Positions 29,888 to 47,319 of a stretch of DNA of 64,000 nt are shown here, piece by piece. How positions within the stretch are numbered: position 1 is the stretch's first letter; each line of letters begins with the position of its first letter. Below the pieces are notes generated by a model that had not been told where the DNA came from, did no database searches, and worked only from the letters and a program-made list of their open reading frames with translations. A program made the position numbers and the translations under genes. This DNA comes from Stieleria bergensis (lineage in GTDB: Bacteria > Planctomycetota > Planctomycetia > Pirellulales > Pirellulaceae), in contig CP036272.1 in the NCBI GenBank assembly GCA_007745635.1, forward strand, positions 6,935,566-6,999,565, in the 5' to 3' direction.

Positions 29888-30001
29888 CCTACACGGCGGG
29901 TACCAACGCTTGCTGAACGACGATGTAGAATGGTCCTCTTTGACCTGAGAACCTAAACCAAGATGACCTCAACCGCCGGGGTCATTCACAGAGGAAGACG
30001 C

Positions 30002-31306
30002 ATGCTCACCCGGTTGCTATCACTTGTTGTTTTCTCAATGACTGCGCTACCACTGTGGGCAGCGGACAAGCCGAACGTCATCATGATTCTCTGTGACGAC
30101 GTCGGATTCGAGTGTTTTAGTGCTTATGGCAGCCATGAATACGCGACTCCCCGGCTGGACGCCTTGGCGGCTGGCGGCGTTCGTTTTGAAAACTGCCACT
30201 CCACGCCGCTTTGCACTCCCAGCCGCGTGAATTTGATGACCGGCAAGTCCAACGTCTATAACTACAATGACTTTGGCGTTTATCCCAAAGGCGAGCCAAC
30301 GTTTGCCAACCATTTCAAACAGCATGGCTATGCGACCGCTGTTGCAGGAAAGTGGCAGTTACTAACAAAGAAGGGCGGCATCACACCGCAGGACGCTGGT
30401 TTTGATAGCTATTGCCTGTGGAACTTCCCGGGCGGAGGGTCCAAGCGGTATTGGAATCCATCGTTGGTCCAGAACGGCAAATTATTGGATCTTCCAGCCG
30501 AAAGCTATGGCCCTGACATCACGACGAACTTCCTGATTGATTTCATCAAGAGGAATCAAGATGGACCGTTCCTGGCCTACTTTCCGATGATCTTGCCGCA
30601 CAATCCATTCCCCGTCACTCCAGACAGCAAAGTTCCTAAGTCAACAGACAGTAAAAGCAATTTCATCGACATGGTGCAGTACATCGACAAAAACGTTGGT
30701 CGCTTGGAGGACACCTTAAAAGAGCTTGGACTCAGAGAGAACACGCTGATCATCTTCACCGGCGACAACGGCACCAACTCCGTCCTAACATCGGAACTCA
30801 ATGGCCAGCAAATTCGCGGCGGGAAAGGCTACACTCACGACTACGGCACCCACGTCCCATTAATCGTCAACTGGCCGGGCAAAGCATCGGGCGGGCAAGT
30901 CGTCGATGATCTGGTTTGCTTCTCGGATCTATTCCCCACCATGGTCCAGGCTGCTGGCCTGCCGGCAAAAACAATCGAAGACGGCGATGGCTGGAGTTTC
31001 TGGCCGCAGTGCATTGGCCAACGCGGCAAACAGCGCGAAGCGATCTACTGCTACTATTTTCCCAGGCCATCAGCGAAGAAATACAACGACAAATACAGCC
31101 ACTACGAAGTTCGCTTTGCCCGAGACAAACGCTACAAGCTTTACGACAATGGCCAGCTCTACGACACCGTGAATGACGTGCTTGAAAAGCAGCCGATTGG
31201 CAGCGATCCAGCCAATGCCACCATCCACTCCGTGCGTCAGAAACTGCAAGCGGTAATCGACTCCTATCCAGCAGCGGGACAGAACGCGAATCGAAGAAAA
31301 CCCTAG
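30002..31306 (+). CDS. Sulfatase (arylsulfatase A-like, formylglycine type)
   Basis: 434 residues from ATG 30002, which follows GAGGAAG and starts a signal peptide (MLTRLLSLVVFSMTALPLWA). An in-frame ATG at 29963 is less likely. The signature is CTPSR with Cys71 as the residue converted to formylglycine. Metal ligands fit CDDVGFE near 31-37 and FTGDNGT. The substrate is a sulfate ester, probably in a polysaccharide. The stop codon overlaps that of the convergent sialidase frame by four bases (palindromic CTAG). Confidence 0.9.
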   Translation: MLTRLLSLVVFSMTALPLWAADKPNVIMILCDDVGFECFSAYGSHEYATPRLDALAAGGVRFENCHSTPLCTPSRVNLMTGKSNVYNYNDFGVYPKGEPTFANHFKQHGYATAVAGKWQLLTKKGGITPQDAGFDSYCLWNFPGGGSKRYWNPSLVQNGKLLDLPAESYGPDITTNFLIDFIKRNQDGPFLAYFPMILPHNPFPVTPDSKVPKSTDSKSNFIDMVQYIDKNVGRLEDTLKELGLRENTLIIFTGDNGTNSVLTSELNGQQIRGGKGYTHDYGTHVPLIVNWPGKASGGQVVDDLVCFSDLFPTMVQAAGLPAKTIEDGDGWSFWPQCIGQRGKQREAIYCYYFPRPSAKKYNDKYSHYEVRFARDKRYKLYDNGQLYDTVNDVLEKQPIGSDPANATIHSVRQKLQAVIDSYPAAGQNANRRKP

Positions 31307-32703
31307 AACCCTTCTGAAGGCAACTTGGGTCGCACCGAATCCTCTGCGTGGCCAGAGAGAAGCTGATCAAATGGAATCTTGATGAATGATTCCGTTCGAT
31401 AACCGTTGTCTTCAAACAAGCATAAGAGGCTCTTTTGATCCGGTGACACCTGCAATGCCGAGTACGCAAAGTGTCCCGGAATGACTTTGACGATCTGCCA
31501 AGACTGGCCATGATTCCGTGAAACCGCAAACTGACCCGCTTTTCGGCCTGCTGCTGAGGGAAACGAAGCCCACAAGTCCCAGTTACCATCTGGTTTGACG
31601 GGGCCTTTGACAACCGCCCCCATGCAAGCGACCGATGGCAAAGTCGTGTCCTCTTGCAGAGCCGTCCATGTTTCCCCACCATCGCGACTGATGGCTTTCT
31701 TGCGAAAACGCTTGCCACCTTGGTTGCGACTGATCAAAACCAAGTCACCGTTGGCTGCCTGGACGACCTGACATTCGTTAGGAAAACCCAACTGGCTGGC
31801 GTCTTGCAGGAATTCAGTACGCTGCCAGGACTGGCCATTGTCATCACTGTAAGCGACCACAACTCGCCACTCACGCGATCGCTTACCGCCCTGTGTCACT
31901 GGATAGGTGCCCCACAGCCCCGTCACGATTCTTCCTTGATGCGGCCCCTTCGTCAACTGGATCATGGCGCCTGGGGTGTTGGCATTTAGCAAGGCGGGAT
32001 GTTTGACCTGCCGGCTAATATCAACTGGCTGGGACCAGGTTAAACCGTCATCATCACTATGGCACAGGAATGTCAACACATTGGCTGTGGGATCATCGTA
32101 GCCAAGACTGGCCATTTTAATCCAACCGGCATCGCGGGCATGTCGCCCATAGGGAAACCGCGCGAACATCAACAGGATCCGGCCATTGTCTAACTGAACC
32201 GTAAGCGGATCGTTGATCGAGTTCTTGCCGTCTTCGTACGCAACGATCTCTTCGCTCCAAGTCTTGCCACCGTCAGTGCTTCGCTTAAGCACAATGTCAT
32301 TCTGTGCGTGATCATGCAGCCCCAATCGGCGCTCGCTGAACGCCAGGATGCTTCCTTGCTTGGTGACCAGCAACGACGGAATGCGATAGCCAAACTGCTT
32401 GGCATCCTTAGCATGTCCCAGACGCGGAACACCATCAGGAATTTCACGCTGCTGAAAGAGGGTTTGTCGTTGCAGCGGCCATTCAACTTCAGAAGCCAGC
32501 GCGATCTCCAGGTGATCGATCAAGACACCTGTCTTTGGGGGACTAGTGACCAAAAATCGCAGTTGCTGGACTCCCTTGTCAACTGGCACAACGACGCGGG
32601 AGAGAAATCCACGACCAACACGTACCTTCTGATCACCGTTGAAGATTTCCTGCCAGCCGCTTGCATTCTTTGCCTCGATACGAAATGAAAAGGGCTTTCT
32701 CAC
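31303..32703 (-). CDS. Exo-alpha-sialidase (BNR) module, separated from a sulfatase by an in-frame TAG
   Basis: The frame from the first GTG (32703) has 466 codons. It shows the RIP motif (GYRIPSLLV) and five Asp boxes (STDGGKTW, SDDDGLTW, SDDNGQSW, SRDGGETW, SRNHGQSW), which build the six-bladed sialidase propeller. It has no signal peptide. The first 70 residues continue a beta-sandwich domain that begins in the upstream sulfatase frame; the two frames are identical in phase with only TAG CGA TGG ACG between. It is thus probably the second half of one long protein. Alternatives: real separate gene without export, or dead remnant. Confidence 0.8.
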   Translation of the reverse strand: MRKPFSFRIEAKNASGWQEIFNGDQKVRVGRGFLSRVVVPVDKGVQQLRFLVTSPPKTGVLIDHLEIALASEVEWPLQRQTLFQQREIPDGVPRLGHAKDAKQFGYRIPSLLVTKQGSILAFSERRLGLHDHAQNDIVLKRSTDGGKTWSEEIVAYEDGKNSINDPLTVQLDNGRILLMFARFPYGRHARDAGWIKMASLGYDDPTANVLTFLCHSDDDGLTWSQPVDISRQVKHPALLNANTPGAMIQLTKGPHQGRIVTGLWGTYPVTQGGKRSREWRVVVAYSDDNGQSWQRTEFLQDASQLGFPNECQVVQAANGDLVLISRNQGGKRFRKKAISRDGGETWTALQEDTTLPSVACMGAVVKGPVKPDGNWDLWASFPSAAGRKAGQFAVSRNHGQSWQIVKVIPGHFAYSALQVSPDQKSLLCLFEDNGYRTESFIKIPFDQLLSGHAEDSVRPKLPSEGF

Positions 32704-32712
32704 CGTCCATCG

Positions 32713-32715
32713 CTA
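32713..32715 (-). other. In-frame TAG between sulfatase and sialidase modules
   Basis: The minus strand reads GTT CTT GCG TTT TGG GCC TAG CGA in the common frame of both modules. GAG or CAG to TAG by a single base change would explain it. The flanking protein sequence (SVLAFWA, then RWTVRKPFSFRIEA) is continuous across the stop. Confidence 0.8.
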
Positions 32716-34500
32716 GGCCCAAAACGCAAGAACACTTTCTGCAGCCACCTTTTCAGCCAACTGCAATGTCGCCACCGTCTTGGTCCCGCCGGTCAGCTGC
32801 AAACATTGCTGACCGGTTTTGGCGTGCCGATCATCGATCAGTGCGCGACCGGCGTTAACATGCCAAGCACCAAGCTTCGTTTGCAGGTTACTGAAGTTGC
32901 CGGGCCGTGCCCGCTCAAATCCCAAGACACGATCCGACACATCGCCGCCGCCCCCTTGAGATCCCTCGGGTTCCCTTGAACGCTCTTTCCACTCGGCAGA
33001 CGTCACCAACGACTGTAACTGCGTGGACAAACGCGATGCTAATTCAGGATTCTCGGCGGCGAGGTTCTCTGTCTCCACCAGACCGCCGGAATAGTCATAG
33101 AGTTCTGTCGCGCGCACTTGACCGGACGCTTTGTGCACCCACTTCGTCAAACGATGAGTTGGCGTGCGCAGCGAATATCCCATTAAGCCTCCGGCCCTGG
33201 GGTACTGACTGACCGCCGCTGATTTGATGACCTGTTCGGGATCACCGAGAACGGAAACCAAGCTGCTGCCTTCCAACTGTTCGTTCACTGGCAACCCAGC
33301 CAGTTCAGCCAAGGTCGGATACAGGTCCACAAGTTCCACCAGAGAATCACTGGCCTGTCCAGCGGCGTGCATGCCGGGAGCACGGATAATCAGTGGGACC
33401 CGAGTATCGAGTTCAAAGTTCGTTGTCTTTCCCCACAAGCCTTGCTCGCCAAGGTGATAACCATGATCCCCATAGAGCACGACGATCGTTCGCTCGCTTA
33501 ACCCCGTCTGTTGCAGTTCCCTGAGCACACGCCCGATCTGCGCATCGATATAGCTGACACAGGCGTAGTAAGCTTGACGAACGCGGCGCTGATTCACATC
33601 AGGAATCGGGCCGGAACCAGGCTGGTCGGTGTAACGCCTTAGTTCACCGGAACGATGTCCCGCAAAGGGTGGCGCGTTGTCAGGCAAGTTGACATCAGCC
33701 GGCAGATCAACACCTTCGTACAGGTCGAAATACTTCTTGGGGGCAATGTAGGGCGAGTGCGGCTTGATGAAACCAACGGCTAGAAAGAACGGTTGATCTT
33801 GATCGCCTAGCTCGCTGAGTCGCTCAATTGCCGCATTGGCCACCTGGCCGTCATACAAGACATTATCCGCCACATCAGGCGATTCCGTCGCGGGCCCGAA
33901 CACCAGTTTTGTCGTCCAGTCATCTGGCCCAGGATTCTGGGGACGGTAGATCTTTTCATAGATCGACTTCGCGGCCGCGATGCCTTGCTCTGTATAGTAG
34001 TAGCGCGGTCCAAAGCGGAGCGCGGGAACGGACCAGCTTTCGGGATCCCCCATGGTGTCCCATTTGGTGACACTGGCGCCGTCGGGAAAAACGCCGTGGT
34101 AGATCTTTCCAATGGCGGCGGCATGATAGCCATGCCGCTTGAAATGCTGCGGCAGTGTGACGATGTCAGGATGCTGAGTGCGAAAGTGCGAATGATTCCC
34201 AGTCACACCAATGGAATCGGGCCGCATCCCGGTCATCAAACTCGTGCGTGATGGATTGCACACAGCTTGCTGGCAGTACGCATGATTGAATCGACGTCCA
34301 CTAGCGGCAAACGCATCAATGTTTGGGCTATGGATATGCGAGGCGCCGTAACAGCCAAGTTCGGGACGCAAATCGTCAACCGCGATGAACAGCACGTTCG
34401 GTCGCGACTGACGTTTGGAAATCAGTTGGGTCGCCTGACCCGACGAAGAATTAGCAAGAAAACAAAGCAGCCACAGCGTAGCGAGCGATCGGCACATCAT
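32713..34500 (-). CDS. Sulfatase (iduronate-2-sulfatase-like) with start of a CBM-like domain
   Basis: 595 residues. Signal peptide MMCRSLATLWLLCFLANSSSG. The active-site motif is CNPSR (Cys81). VDDLRPELGCYG, FFLAVGFIKPHSPY, YGDHGYHLGEQGLWGKTTNF and an ending of the catalytic part near residue 500 fit the iduronate-2-sulfatase-like group. Residues 515-595 (VLGFERARPG to SVLAFWA) do not belong to the sulfatase fold; they form the first half of the domain completed in the sialidase frame. A second ATG follows the first directly, so the start may be 34497. Confidence 0.88.
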   Translation of the reverse strand: MMCRSLATLWLLCFLANSSSGQATQLISKRQSRPNVLFIAVDDLRPELGCYGASHIHSPNIDAFAASGRRFNHAYCQQAVCNPSRTSLMTGMRPDSIGVTGNHSHFRTQHPDIVTLPQHFKRHGYHAAAIGKIYHGVFPDGASVTKWDTMGDPESWSVPALRFGPRYYYTEQGIAAAKSIYEKIYRPQNPGPDDWTTKLVFGPATESPDVADNVLYDGQVANAAIERLSELGDQDQPFFLAVGFIKPHSPYIAPKKYFDLYEGVDLPADVNLPDNAPPFAGHRSGELRRYTDQPGSGPIPDVNQRRVRQAYYACVSYIDAQIGRVLRELQQTGLSERTIVVLYGDHGYHLGEQGLWGKTTNFELDTRVPLIIRAPGMHAAGQASDSLVELVDLYPTLAELAGLPVNEQLEGSSLVSVLGDPEQVIKSAAVSQYPRAGGLMGYSLRTPTHRLTKWVHKASGQVRATELYDYSGGLVETENLAAENPELASRLSTQLQSLVTSAEWKERSREPEGSQGGGGDVSDRVLGFERARPGNFSNLQTKLGAWHVNAGRALIDDRHAKTGQQCLQLTGGTKTVATLQLAEKVAAESVLAFWA

Positions 34501-34791: not shown

Positions 34792-36387
34792 TCAGTTTTC
34801 CAGCTGTTTTAGATCGAAACCTTTCTTCTCTAACAGCTGCTTGATGTCCTCGATTTTGCGAAAGCGTTCGATGGTCATTGGTCCTGTATAGACTTCGCTT
34901 TGAAGCTTTCGCGGCGGATCGATTTGATAGGTCTTCATCAGCTCGGCAACCGATTTATTGAACGTCACCAGCGTCCAAGTCTTTTCTGTCCAGCTGTTCA
35001 TGAACACATCGTAGCGTTCTTGAGGATCCTGCCAGAGATCGTAAACCGCTGGCACGGTTGCAATGTACCTCTCTGGCCCACGCCAACCCAACTCTGGTGC
35101 CGGTGCTTCCGTTCCCGCCATGGCCCCGTTGTCGCCGCGCAAGTTAAACACGGCCTTCCATTTACCGGAGCGGACAGCGCCGGGAGACAACTCTGTTTCG
35201 GTGAAGTAATACCAAGTGTCCCGTTTCCAACCGTCCTGGCCCATCAACAACGGTGTCATATCATAGCTATCAAACACGATCGGCTTCCCTTCACGATCCA
35301 GCTTGGGCACATCGACGCCAGCGAGCGAGGCAAAGGTTGCCAAGAGATCCAAACCGCCAACAATCTCATGTGACTCACGGCCAGCCTCGATTGTCCCGGG
35401 CCACCAAGCTAGCGCCGGCACGCGGCTACCGCCTTCTCGACAATTCCCTTTTGTCCCGCGAAACGGCGTGTAACCCGAGTCTGGATGAACATCTTGCCAG
35501 GCACCGTTATCGACCGTGTAGATCACCAAAGTCTTTTCCTTGATCCCCAATGCCTCGATCTTTTTCAGCACTTCGCCAACGTGATGATCGAGCTCAACAA
35601 CAGAATCTGCGTATGGACTCTTCGCTGGAGACGCTCCCTTGAACGCCTTGGCAGGCAGGTTGGGCTGGTGGTTTTTGCCGAAGTTGATGCTCATCAGAAA
35701 CGGCTTGTCTTGCTTTGCGAGTTTCTCCATGTGCTCCAAGGAAACCTTCGTTGTCAGCATATCGATTTCGGCGATGTTTCGATCGTCGATCTTGGCGACT
35801 TCTCGCACTTTGCCACCGGCTTCGCCTTCCAGAAGACCCGTGGTGACCTTTTCGAAGAAGGCTCGCAGTTCGGGATCCATGTCAGGGTTGAACGATTCAA
35901 GCGGATAGGTGTAGGCGTTGAGGTGATACAAGAACGTGTTCCGCATCACATCAAACCCGTGGTTGATGGGCATCGCATAGTCGGCTTCGCCCAAATGCCA
36001 CTTTCCTGAATAGAACGTGTTGTAACCGGCTTGCTTCAACACCGAGGCATAGGTCCATTCCGCAGCTGGCAAGCCACCGCCTTGTCCCTGAAAGGCCACG
36101 GTTGTCATGCCACTTCGGTTGGGGATTCGGCCAGTGAGCATCGCCGCCCGGCCGGGCGTACAACTAGGCTGACCATAGAAGGACCAGAACTTCATGCCTT
36201 CACGAGCCATCCGATCAAAGTTAGGCGTGGGCATCCCTCGGCCGACCCCGCCACCATAGCAACCGAAGTCTCCGTATCCTGTGTCGTCAGAAATCAAGAC
36301 AACGATGTTCGGCTTTTCAGCCAAACTCAGGGAGGCCAGCGGCACTAAAACAACGGCGGTAATCCCTAAGAGGCGAAGGAGAACCAT
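34792..36387 (-). CDS. Sulfatase (arylsulfatase, formylglycine type)
   Basis: 531 residues from ATG 36387, where a signal peptide begins (MVLLRLLGITAVVLVPLASL). The open frame continues to 36591 without coding character. Active-site motif SCTPGR with Cys76; ISDDTGYGDFGCYGGG gives metal ligands; SGKWHLGEADY and VDNGAWQDVHPDSGYTPFRG are typical. The length fits arylsulfatases. It is 291 bases upstream of the sulfatase-sialidase gene on the same strand. Confidence 0.9.
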   Translation of the reverse strand: MVLLRLLGITAVVLVPLASLSLAEKPNIVVLISDDTGYGDFGCYGGGVGRGMPTPNFDRMAREGMKFWSFYGQPSCTPGRAAMLTGRIPNRSGMTTVAFQGQGGGLPAAEWTYASVLKQAGYNTFYSGKWHLGEADYAMPINHGFDVMRNTFLYHLNAYTYPLESFNPDMDPELRAFFEKVTTGLLEGEAGGKVREVAKIDDRNIAEIDMLTTKVSLEHMEKLAKQDKPFLMSINFGKNHQPNLPAKAFKGASPAKSPYADSVVELDHHVGEVLKKIEALGIKEKTLVIYTVDNGAWQDVHPDSGYTPFRGTKGNCREGGSRVPALAWWPGTIEAGRESHEIVGGLDLLATFASLAGVDVPKLDREGKPIVFDSYDMTPLLMGQDGWKRDTWYYFTETELSPGAVRSGKWKAVFNLRGDNGAMAGTEAPAPELGWRGPERYIATVPAVYDLWQDPQERYDVFMNSWTEKTWTLVTFNKSVAELMKTYQIDPPRKLQSEVYTGPMTIERFRKIEDIKQLLEKKGFDLKQLEN

Positions 36388-36545
36388 AGCTAAAATCCTG
36401 TGAGTCAATGGATATAAACTGTACTTGCTGCAACTCAACACGTTGAAGCAAAAAACTGTACGCCATTGGATTGCGCCGCCTGGTTGATTCCCAGGGCGGG
36501 CATGAGGTTGAGCCGCCATCGGGCAAGAGACCCGGCACTGTTTCC

Positions 36546-36564
36546 GGCCAAGCAATGCTTGGCC
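36546..36564. repeat. 19-bp palindrome
   Basis: GGCCAAGCA-A-TGCTTGGCC in the intergenic region between the sulfatase and ArsR genes. It may be a regulator site or a hairpin. Confidence 0.5.
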
Positions 36565-36601
36565 CCACGGGGAATGACGAAGAAAACACAAGAAACACTC
36601 A

Positions 36602-38506: not shown

Positions 38507-39946
38507 ATGTTCTTAAAATACTTCTACGATCAGAAACTTGCACACGCCTCCTACATGGTCGGCTGCCAACGGGCAAAAGCGGCCCTGATTGTTGACCCGG
38601 GCCGCGACATCGCTCCCTATCTGGAAGCCGCGGCCAGCGAAGGCTTTGAAATCACTGCGGTTGCTGAGACTCACATCCATGCCGACTATGTCTCTGGTGC
38701 TAGAGAACTTGCTGACCGAGTCGGAGCCAAACTGCACGTCTCCGATGAGGGACCGACGGAATGGAAGTCTCTTTACTTGGACCAATACGACCACCAGAAG
38801 CTGCACGATGGTGATCAGTTTATGGTTGGTGGCATCAAGCTAGAAGTGATGCACACCCCCGGCCACACTCCGGAAAGCATTTCGTTTTTATTGACAGACC
38901 AAGGTGGTGGAGCCGAGCACCCAATGGGCATCTTCACGGGTGACTTTGTGTTTGTTGGTTCCATAGGTCGCCCGGACTTACTAGAGGAAGCTGCAGGCAT
39001 TGACAACACAGCTGAACCTGGCGCCCGTGATTTGTATCAATCGATCCAACGCTTCCGCCAGCTTCCAGATCATCTGCAGGTTTGGCCCGCCCATGGAGCT
39101 GGCAGTGCATGCGGCAAAGGACTGGGTGCGATTCCATCGTCGACCGTTGGTTATGAAAAACGGGTCAACCCAGCACTGCAGTACACCAACGAAACTGATT
39201 TTGTGAATTACATTTTGACTGATCAACCCGAGGCCCCGAAGTACTTTGGGCTAATGAAGCAAATCAACAAAGAAGGGCCGGCCATTCTTGGCAAGCAAGG
39301 CAACACACCTACGCTACCGGTGACAGAGATCGATGACGCGGTCGCCAACGGCACGGTGATTGACCTGACGGGCTCCGCCCAATTCGGAAAACAACATGTC
39401 GGGGGAACACTCAACATTCCCAGCAAGATGCTCGCGGCCTGGGCGGGTTGGCTAGTGGACTATTCCCGACCGGTCTACCTGATCTCGGACGGACTCGATG
39501 ATGCTCAAGAAGCGACGCGTGTCCTTCAGAAAATTGGCATCGACCGAGTTGCCGGCTTCATCGATCGCTCGGCATTGATCAGCGCTGGCAGGGCGACGCA
39601 ATCTTATCCAAATGCGAGTCCGCAAGAACTTGCCAAGGACATTGAGAATCAGCAAGCGCTCCTCATTGACGTGCGAAACATCACCGAATGGAACCAAGGT
39701 CACATCCCCCAGGCCCAACATCGGTTTCTTGGTAAACTCCCTGACACAATGAATCAGTTGCCCAACGATCAACGAATTCTCATTCAGTGCCAGAGCGGTG
39801 CACGATCTGCAATTGCTGCCAGCCTGCTACAAGCGGCCGGACTGCTGGTCACCAACATGACAGGAGGTTACTCAGCCTGGACGCGGCAGGGTTTGCCAGT
39901 CGTCACCAGCAGCGAACCTGTTTGCAGCACAGCATGCAACCTATGA
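38507..39946 (+). CDS. Persulfide dioxygenase-rhodanese fusion (ETHE1/Blh-like)
   Basis: 479 residues. The metallo-beta-lactamase domain has ETHIHADYVSGA, HTPGHTPESIS and TGDFVFVGSIGRPDL, which fit the ETHE1 iron-binding group that oxidises persulfides to sulfite. Two rhodanese domains follow. The first (about 275-360) lacks the catalytic Cys (VYLISDG); the second carries QCQSGARS with Cys428. So the protein probably couples persulfide oxidation with sulfur transfer. It is the core enzyme of this operon. Confidence 0.92.
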   Translation: MFLKYFYDQKLAHASYMVGCQRAKAALIVDPGRDIAPYLEAAASEGFEITAVAETHIHADYVSGARELADRVGAKLHVSDEGPTEWKSLYLDQYDHQKLHDGDQFMVGGIKLEVMHTPGHTPESISFLLTDQGGGAEHPMGIFTGDFVFVGSIGRPDLLEEAAGIDNTAEPGARDLYQSIQRFRQLPDHLQVWPAHGAGSACGKGLGAIPSSTVGYEKRVNPALQYTNETDFVNYILTDQPEAPKYFGLMKQINKEGPAILGKQGNTPTLPVTEIDDAVANGTVIDLTGSAQFGKQHVGGTLNIPSKMLAAWAGWLVDYSRPVYLISDGLDDAQEATRVLQKIGIDRVAGFIDRSALISAGRATQSYPNASPQELAKDIENQQALLIDVRNITEWNQGHIPQAQHRFLGKLPDTMNQLPNDQRILIQCQSGARSAIAASLLQAAGLLVTNMTGGYSAWTRQGLPVVTSSEPVCSTACNL

Positions 39947-45402: not shown

Positions 45403-47319
45403 ATGTTGCGTTTTTGTCTGTTGTTGATGGCCTGCGCTTCCGTGCCATGGACGGTGGCAGCCCAGCGGCCGCCCAACGTCGTCTTCATACTGGCCGATGA
45501 TCTGGGTTGGAGCGATACAACTTTGTATGGAACGACATCATTGTATCGAACGCCCCATATTAAACGGCTCGCCAAACGCGGCATGACCTTCACGCGAGCC
45601 TATTCGTCCAGTCCGCTTTGTTCGCCGACCCGCGCCAGCATCTTAACGGGACTGAGCCCAGCGAGGCATGGAATCACCACTCCGCGCTGTCATCTGCCTC
45701 AAGTCATCTTAGCAGCGACGGCCACCAAAACAGCAGCGCCACAGAACAAGTCCACGATTCCTGATTCAGTGTCCAGGCTGAAGACGGATTACTACACATT
45801 GGGTGAAGCGTTTCACGATGCAGGGTACGCGACAGGCCATTTTGGTAAATGGCACCTGGGCCCCGAACCCTATTCACCGTTGCAACATGGTTTTGACATT
45901 GATGTGCCACACTGGCATGGCCCCGGACCGGCAGGTAGCTATGTAGCGCCTTGGAAATTCAAAGACTTTGACCACGACCCAGACGTACCAGACCAGCATC
46001 TTGAAGATCGGATGGCAACCGAGGCCGTGGCGTTCTTGGAACAACACCAGGACAAACCGTTCTTTTTGAACTACTGGATGTTCAGTGTTCACGCACCATT
46101 TGATGCCAAGCAGGCACTGATCGAAAAGTATCGCTCGCAGGTTGACCCCGATAACCCACAGCGCTGCCCAACCTATGCGGCGATGATCGAAAGCATGGAT
46201 GACGCAGTGGGCACCTTGATCGACACCCTTGATCGCCTGAAGCTAAGCGACAACACCATCATCGTGTTTGCGTCCGACAATGGCGGCAACATGTACAACC
46301 GTGTCGAGGGTGAAACACCGACGAGCAACGCGCCACTGCGTGGTGGGAAAGCCACGATGTACGAAGGCGGTGTCCGTGGACCATGCTGCGTCATCTGGCC
46401 GGGTCAAGTCAAATCGGATAGCCGAAGTGACGAAATCATTCAGAGCAGCGACTTCTATCCAACACTGGTTGAGATCAGCAAACTAACGTTACCGCAGCAG
46501 ATCCCATTCGATGGCGTGAGCATCGTGCCTGCATTGCAGGGCGGCCGACTTGAGCGTGATGCGATCTTCACTTACTTCCCACACAATCCCGCGGTTCCAG
46601 ACTGGCTACCACCATCTGTCAGTGTTCATCGTGGCGACTGGAAACTGATTCGAATCTTTCACGGAGGCAAAACCGACCAGCATCGCTGGAAGCTGTTCAA
46701 CCTAAAAAGCGACATTGGCGAAACGCAGAATCTGGCGGCAAAACATCCCGCTTTGGTTCAAGAGCTAGACGCGTTGATCGAATCGCACCTTGTCCAGACT
46801 CAAGCCGTGCGTCCACTGGCAAATCCAAACTTCGACCCCACAAAGCATCACCCCGAACGAGAAGGAATCGCGTTCAACCGCCAAGCGAAACCTGCCAAGC
46901 AAACAGCCCAGCGAACCGCCGGATGGCTGCCCAGCAAGGACTGTTCGCTCGCCAAAAAGAGCGGCCAGCTTGTGGTTACCTCGACAGGCAACGACCCTTA
47001 CCTAAGCTTCAACTTCCCCAAGCCATTGGAGACAGGTTCATTCAAACTCAATCTGACGCTGACTTCCAATGCTCGTGGAGATGCTCAATTGTTCTGGGGC
47101 GAACGTGGCGCTGACCGACCGTTCTTTCGCGAGCGTAGCAAAACGTTTCCCATCAAGAACGATGGAAAACCACATCAGTACACGATTCTGATGGAAACCC
47201 AGGCCGACCTGACCGCGATCCGATTGGATCCTAGTCGTGGTCCTGGCACCATCCGAATCGAGTCCATTGAACTTAAAGACCAAACCGATGAACTGATTTA
47301 TCGGTGGCCCCTGAAGTGA
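45403..47319 (+). CDS. Sulfatase with C-terminal beta-sandwich extension
   Basis: 638 residues, signal peptide [20 protein letters not shown]. Active-site motif CSPTR (Cys73); [36 protein letters not shown] and [12 protein letters not shown] are sulfatase motifs. The catalytic part ends near residue 460. About 120 extra residues ([19 protein letters not shown] to [10 protein letters not shown]) look like a beta-sandwich domain, perhaps for carbohydrate binding. Divergent from the PSD1-DUF1501 operon and possibly co-regulated with it through the shared upstream region. Confidence 0.9.

Follow-up and report, generated by a model that had tools for sequence, protein, structure and literature searches.

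A probable recent nonsense mutation in a gene joining sulfatase, carbohydrate-binding-module-like and sialidase domains in Stieleria bergensis

The window analysed here is a stretch of 64,000 nucleotides from the genome of Stieleria bergensis, a member of the Pirellulaceae (contig CP036272.1, positions 6,935,566 to 6,999,565). On its minus strand, a frame of 595 codons (595 aa, ORF 34500-32713) starts with ATG at 34500 and has TAG as terminator, and beyond this TAG the same frame is open until the stop at 31305-31303. Frame reading places 34500-32716 and 32712-31306 in one phase with the lone TAG at 32715-32713 between them, as had been claimed in an earlier note made from the letters alone. 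The whole frame, with X in place of the TAG at residue 596, has 1,065 residues, in agreement with the product length of about 1,065 proposed there for the gene without its stop. Neither a second stop nor a frameshift occurs in the 466 codons downstream of the TAG. The parts of the frame, each followed by its basis in brackets, are as follows.

32971..34500, minus strand: sulfatase part, residues 1-510, with the leader-like start MMCRSLATLWLLCFLANSSSGQA and the active-site motif C81-N-P-S-R (Pfam, PDB matches; leader by eye)
32716..32922, minus strand: first half of a beta-sandwich resembling carbohydrate-binding modules (CBM-like), residues 527-595 (homology limits and model)
32713..32715, minus strand: in-frame TAG, residue 596, glutamate in 58 of 58 homologues (frame reading and homologue alignment)
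32494..32712, minus strand: second half of the CBM-like beta-sandwich, residues 597-669 (homology limits and model)
31303..32703, minus strand: open frame after the stop if called alone, GTG start at 32703, 466 aa, without visible leader (ORF list)
31360..32460, minus strand: sialidase part, a GH33-like propeller, residues 681-1047 (Pfam BNR_2 and BNR over cut-off, PDB, relatives)

Three more sulfatases lie within about 11 kb of the gene (29963-31306, plus strand; 34792-36591, minus strand; 45403-47319, plus strand). The first of these and the sialidase frame are convergent, with a terminal overlap of four bases (31303-31306). Adjacency in the same phase is by itself weak evidence for a single gene, the window having six stops, the present TAG included, that each separate two open stretches in one frame, both no shorter than 130 codons; of the other five, the two pairs that were read (at 39944 and 57467) look like ordinary separate neighbour genes. 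The TAG-split frame is regarded as one gene because homology runs across the stop, and chance same-phase neighbours were ruled out on that ground.

The first half of the frame is assigned by profile and motif to the formylglycine (S1-type) sulfatases. The Pfam Sulfatase and SGSH_C models match residues 34-402 and 351-497, respectively, both above cut-off (PF00884 scores 174 bits against a curated cut-off of 25), and the C-x-P-S-R motif, described as the sulfatase active-site motif in PMC4807772, is present as CNPSR at residue 81. The best PDB match is an arylsulfatase (6hhm, E 7.7e-89), followed by an iduronate-2-sulfatase (5fql). The leader at the sulfatase start was judged by eye.

The second half is assigned to the GH33-like sialidases by profile (PF13088 scores 81 bits against a cut-off of 31.4), by similarity to bacterial sialidases of the PDB (E 6e-34) and by its active-site letters. 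Residues R107, E310, R326, R387 and Y414, in the numbering of the second ORF, are invariant across seven sequences and have the same letters in 5tsp and 2vk5; we take them to be the catalytic arginine triad, glutamate and tyrosine of sialidases. This half begins within the beta-sandwich and has no signal peptide visible by eye, in keeping with the earlier statement that it lacks one.

Residues 527-669 form a single homologous unit. An AlphaFold2 model of it, built from a three-row alignment with the TAG read as Q, is an eleven-stranded beta-sandwich (mean pLDDT 80.8, pTM 0.80) in which the stop is model residue 77, within strand 70-78, the sixth of eleven; the proposal that the stop cuts one fold in half is borne out by the model and by the homology limits. 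The best Foldseek hits include CBM22, CBM4, CBM16 and CBM29 (E from 2.5e-6, TM about 0.45-0.58, rmsd mostly 4-8 A), with a few non-CBM proteins interspersed among them, and the predicted fold would resemble carbohydrate-binding modules, the match being a modest one. The stretch has no Pfam match at E up to 10, and among PDB sequences a profile search yielded no hit under E 0.3, so that by these searches the domain appears to lie outside the catalogued CBM families.

Within the family, the domain was matched in 54 of 241 genomes, at 61 places, of which 60 are free of stops; the sole stop is the TAG of the window. The alignment across the TAG, which had been suggested as a check, comprises 58 distinct homologues, two of them other copies in the window's own genome, and all 58 have glutamate at the column of the TAG and no stop within the domain (a smaller, earlier set gave glutamate in 33 of 33). 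These 58 genes are chosen loci rather than all hits of the domain search, with the repeats L078, L079 and L082 and the domain-less L195, L196 and L211 omitted. The same domain was also seen in a Kiritimatiellia genome (L015, 5042-5473), where it sits behind, not before, a related sialidase.

Twenty relatives have a sulfatase, 58-75% identical to that of the window, which continues in frame into the beta-sandwich; among these, L095 and L194 carry a stop within the sulfatase and L190 is truncated where its contig ends. In all 20 the beta-sandwich is followed by a linker and a sialidase; an acetylesterase follows in frame in 16 (it holds a stop in L190, and only a short piece of it matches in L194), and the remaining four break off where, or close to where, the contig or locus ends. 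A second sulfatase lies within the same open frame in seven of the 20. The resulting giant frames of about 2,000-2,200 codons (L092, L093, L095, L097, L184, L185, L208; in L095 the stop cuts off the first sulfatase) have the order sulfatase, CBM-like domain, linker, sialidase, acetylesterase, second sulfatase. Another locus, L107, lacks the sulfatase core (about residues 139-436) through a deletion that preserves the frame, and keeps the CBM-like domain and the sialidase.

The window gene departs from this scheme in its sialidase. L092 (G284), of 2,175 aa, resembles it in the sulfatase (71% identical) and the beta-sandwich (59%); unlike it, L092 is uninterrupted and carries a BNR_assoc_N-type linker, another sialidase only 26% identical to that of the window, a SASA acetylesterase and a second sulfatase. 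By this comparison the two sialidases are of different types. A sialidase of the window's type was found at E <= 1e-70 in five of 240 family genomes, the window genome included; three of the other four carriers have sequences 71-76% identical to it and one 41%, and at the same threshold the type is absent from 13 other genomes of the genus. One such sialidase occurs in a Mariniblastus sp. of the Pirellulaceae (L001, 1,235 aa), whose single frame joins a sulfatase to a sialidase with 71% identity to that of the window; L001 is free of stops, its sulfatase is a different one, the locus lacks the CBM-like domain, and the frame contains a further central section of about 350 residues. The earlier note had reckoned with homologues that are two genes with export signals of their own. 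Such sialidases exist as stand-alone exported genes with their own leader in L222 (G485) and L223 (G495), which are 74-75% and 71-72% identical, respectively, to the sialidase part of the window, but both lack the beta-sandwich piece.

Judged by these relationships, the window gene is a mosaic of sulfatase, CBM-like domain and sialidase, a variant of the family with a different sialidase. No second example of the exact three-part arrangement was found among the family loci and sialidase records examined, and the arrangement has for this reason not been seen with a sense codon at the site of the TAG. Among 18 distinct other sialidase records listed, none has the beta-sandwich ahead of the sialidase, and L015 has it behind. 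The fusion may have originated by a deletion beside a separate sialidase gene, as hinted by L192, but in L192 the sialidase is itself the terminal part of a sulfatase fusion of 1,235 residues; L192 and L001 are apparently the same record.

As to biological role, the sialidase gene of L223 adjoins lyase-like, NanM-like/symporter and epimerase-like genes. The NanM Pfam score is over its cut-off and those of the lyase and the epimerase are under the NCBIfam ones, and the neighbourhood suggests the use of sialic acid; such cluster neighbours were looked for and not found at the lyase-like gene of the window genome. From domain content and gene neighbourhoods, it is plausible that the full-length product would have been one enzyme taking both sulfate and sialic acid off one glycan.

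The preservation of the two halves was examined at positions otherwise invariant among the homologues. The window departs at 0 of 176 such positions in the sulfatase, 0 of 5 in the first half-domain, 0 of 10 in the second half-domain and 7 of 152 in the sialidase, the counts resting on the 21, 43, 49 and 13 sequences, respectively (window included), that were left after identity and coverage limits had dropped rows. These few departures and the absence of a second stop give no sign of the further decay of an old pseudogene, and if evolution has been neutral, the absence of a second stop bounds the divergence since the TAG arose at about 0.05 substitutions per site. Since there is no second stop and departures are few, the TAG is recent at most, or an error, or tolerated. 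The seven departures of the sialidase are the most among the 13 sequences (three others have 5 of 150); some relaxation of the sialidase half, before or after the stop, is possible.

Interruptions at other places were found in at least five of the 58 relatives (L095, L190, L194, L197 and L206), a lower bound as several of the 58 are cut by contig or locus ends. They comprise a TAA at residue 443 of the sulfatase in L095, a TAG at residue 96 of the sulfatase in L194, a TGA in the sialidase of L206, a TAA in the acetylesterase of L190, and a frame change with a stop in L197. In the window genome, one of 29 other listed sulfatase places is decayed (150 of 238 candidates scored): L215 (G000:C1:2633500-2639500), iduronate-sulfatase-like, has an in-frame TGA where the window sulfatase has Gly and has lost its C-terminal part. 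L214 and L216, also flagged in that genome, have stops at the end of the sulfatase match that look like natural ends. Conservation of the stop elsewhere was a further candidate, four sialidase places having been flagged with an internal stop, two of them in G037; it was set aside for the other two, G053:C1150 showing no stop in the aligned part and G048:C153 none in the matches to the domain or the sialidase. The loss of such secreted enzymes seems to recur, with the caution that the interrupted relatives come from multi-contig assemblies. As a control, no internal stop was found among the family matches listed for rpoB, including that of the window genome; 16 of 240 genomes, among them the lesion carriers G053 and G519, gave no rpoB match. 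As rpoB is essential, its freedom from stops bears on sequencing error and not on the rate of stops in dispensable genes.

The reading that we favour, with a probability of about 0.8, is a recent single-base nonsense mutation in a fusion gene of sulfatase, CBM-like domain and sialidase; of the origins offered in the earlier note, the one-base nonsense mutation is the one that the alignment supports, glutamate standing at the site in 58 of 58 homologues and the domain being uninterrupted in all 60 other places. The original gene would have encoded one exported protein of the three parts, with the sulfatase leader directing the whole of it out of the cytoplasm, until a single-base change turned the codon of the invariant glutamate in the beta-sandwich into TAG. 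The cell would now export a sulfatase that ends in half of the beta-sandwich and may retain activity, its catalytic part being whole, while the sialidase would have lost export and probably production as well. The mutation may be recent or still segregating, as no other stop or frameshift has appeared. The number of departures in the sialidase half, the highest of the 13 sequences, counts against this reading.

It is unlikely that the TAG is an error of sequencing or assembly in an intact gene. Such an error would fit a TAG that is the sole lesion in 1,065 codons and the preserved appearance of both catalytic parts, but the assembly consists of one contig of 7.1 Mb and the stop-free rpoB of the window genome and of every other listed family match argues against it. 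We think it rather doubtful, too, that the sulfatase-sialidase giants have been stopped repeatedly and independently at different places, with stop alleles segregating as a reversible off-state and the truncated exported sulfatase as a partial product. The idea arises because the window gene and five of the 58 relatives are stopped and none of the listed rpoB matches is; if true, it would mean that a costly secreted enzyme is switched off while its substrate comes and goes.

Read-through of the TAG at a regulated level, which would yield chiefly the sulfatase and, in small amounts, the full-length bifunctional enzyme, had been listed as an option in the earlier note and is in our view highly improbable. 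The 466 codons open past the stop and the retention of residues aligning with the sialidase active site are what it would predict, and many in-frame stops of bacterial genes have been argued not to mark pseudogenes (PMC7918605). However, the stop is found in none of the 58 homologues and replaces an invariant glutamate, release factor RF1 is present in the window genome over its profile cut-off, and none of the 39 detected tRNA genes (150 of 240 candidates scored) has the anticodon CTA. On these grounds recoding of the TAG was ruled out and any designed read-through is unlikely. It is hardly to be expected, either, that both halves now function as genes, with translation of the second restarting at the GTG ten bases past the TAG. 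That GTG at 32703 is near enough to the stop for coupled restart, and L095 has an ATG directly after its interrupting TAA; the latter, however, stands where the window sulfatase also has Met (a GYSMRT/GYSLRT-like region) and marks no special start. Restart would leave the halves in different compartments, as the second half has no visible leader, and no homologue was seen split inside the beta-sandwich, which also removes the ground for the natural split gene proposed earlier.

The preferred explanation makes of the stop itself probably an ordinary nonsense mutation and not a new way of reading genes. Of more interest than the stop is its context, the secreted multi-enzymes of the Pirellulaceae of up to about 2,200 aa, a family that, by its domain content, would unite the removal of sulfate, sialic acid and acetyl groups in a single chain built around an uncatalogued CBM-like domain. 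The window gene, such a chain reassembled with another sialidase and afterwards seemingly lost, offers a small case of birth and death among modular enzymes.

A literature search for sulfatase-sialidase fusions returned no paper recognisable, by title and the start of its abstract, as treating them. Planctomycete sialidases and Nan clusters have been described (PMC11929135), with no mention of sulfatase fusions in the parts of that paper concerned with them. The survey of in-frame stops in bacterial genes (PMC7918605) describes cases that resemble the window gene in having one stop in a frame otherwise preserved; its focus is on stops common to orthologues, whereas the TAG of the window is common to none of 58. 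The nearest known systems are the multi-domain sulfatases of planctomycetes, some fused with glycoside-hydrolase domains and thought to have arisen by gene fusion (PMC4807772). The word sialidase is absent from the main text of that paper and the window gene differs in carrying a stop, whereas the joining of a sulfatase with a glycoside-hydrolase domain in one planctomycete protein is common to both.
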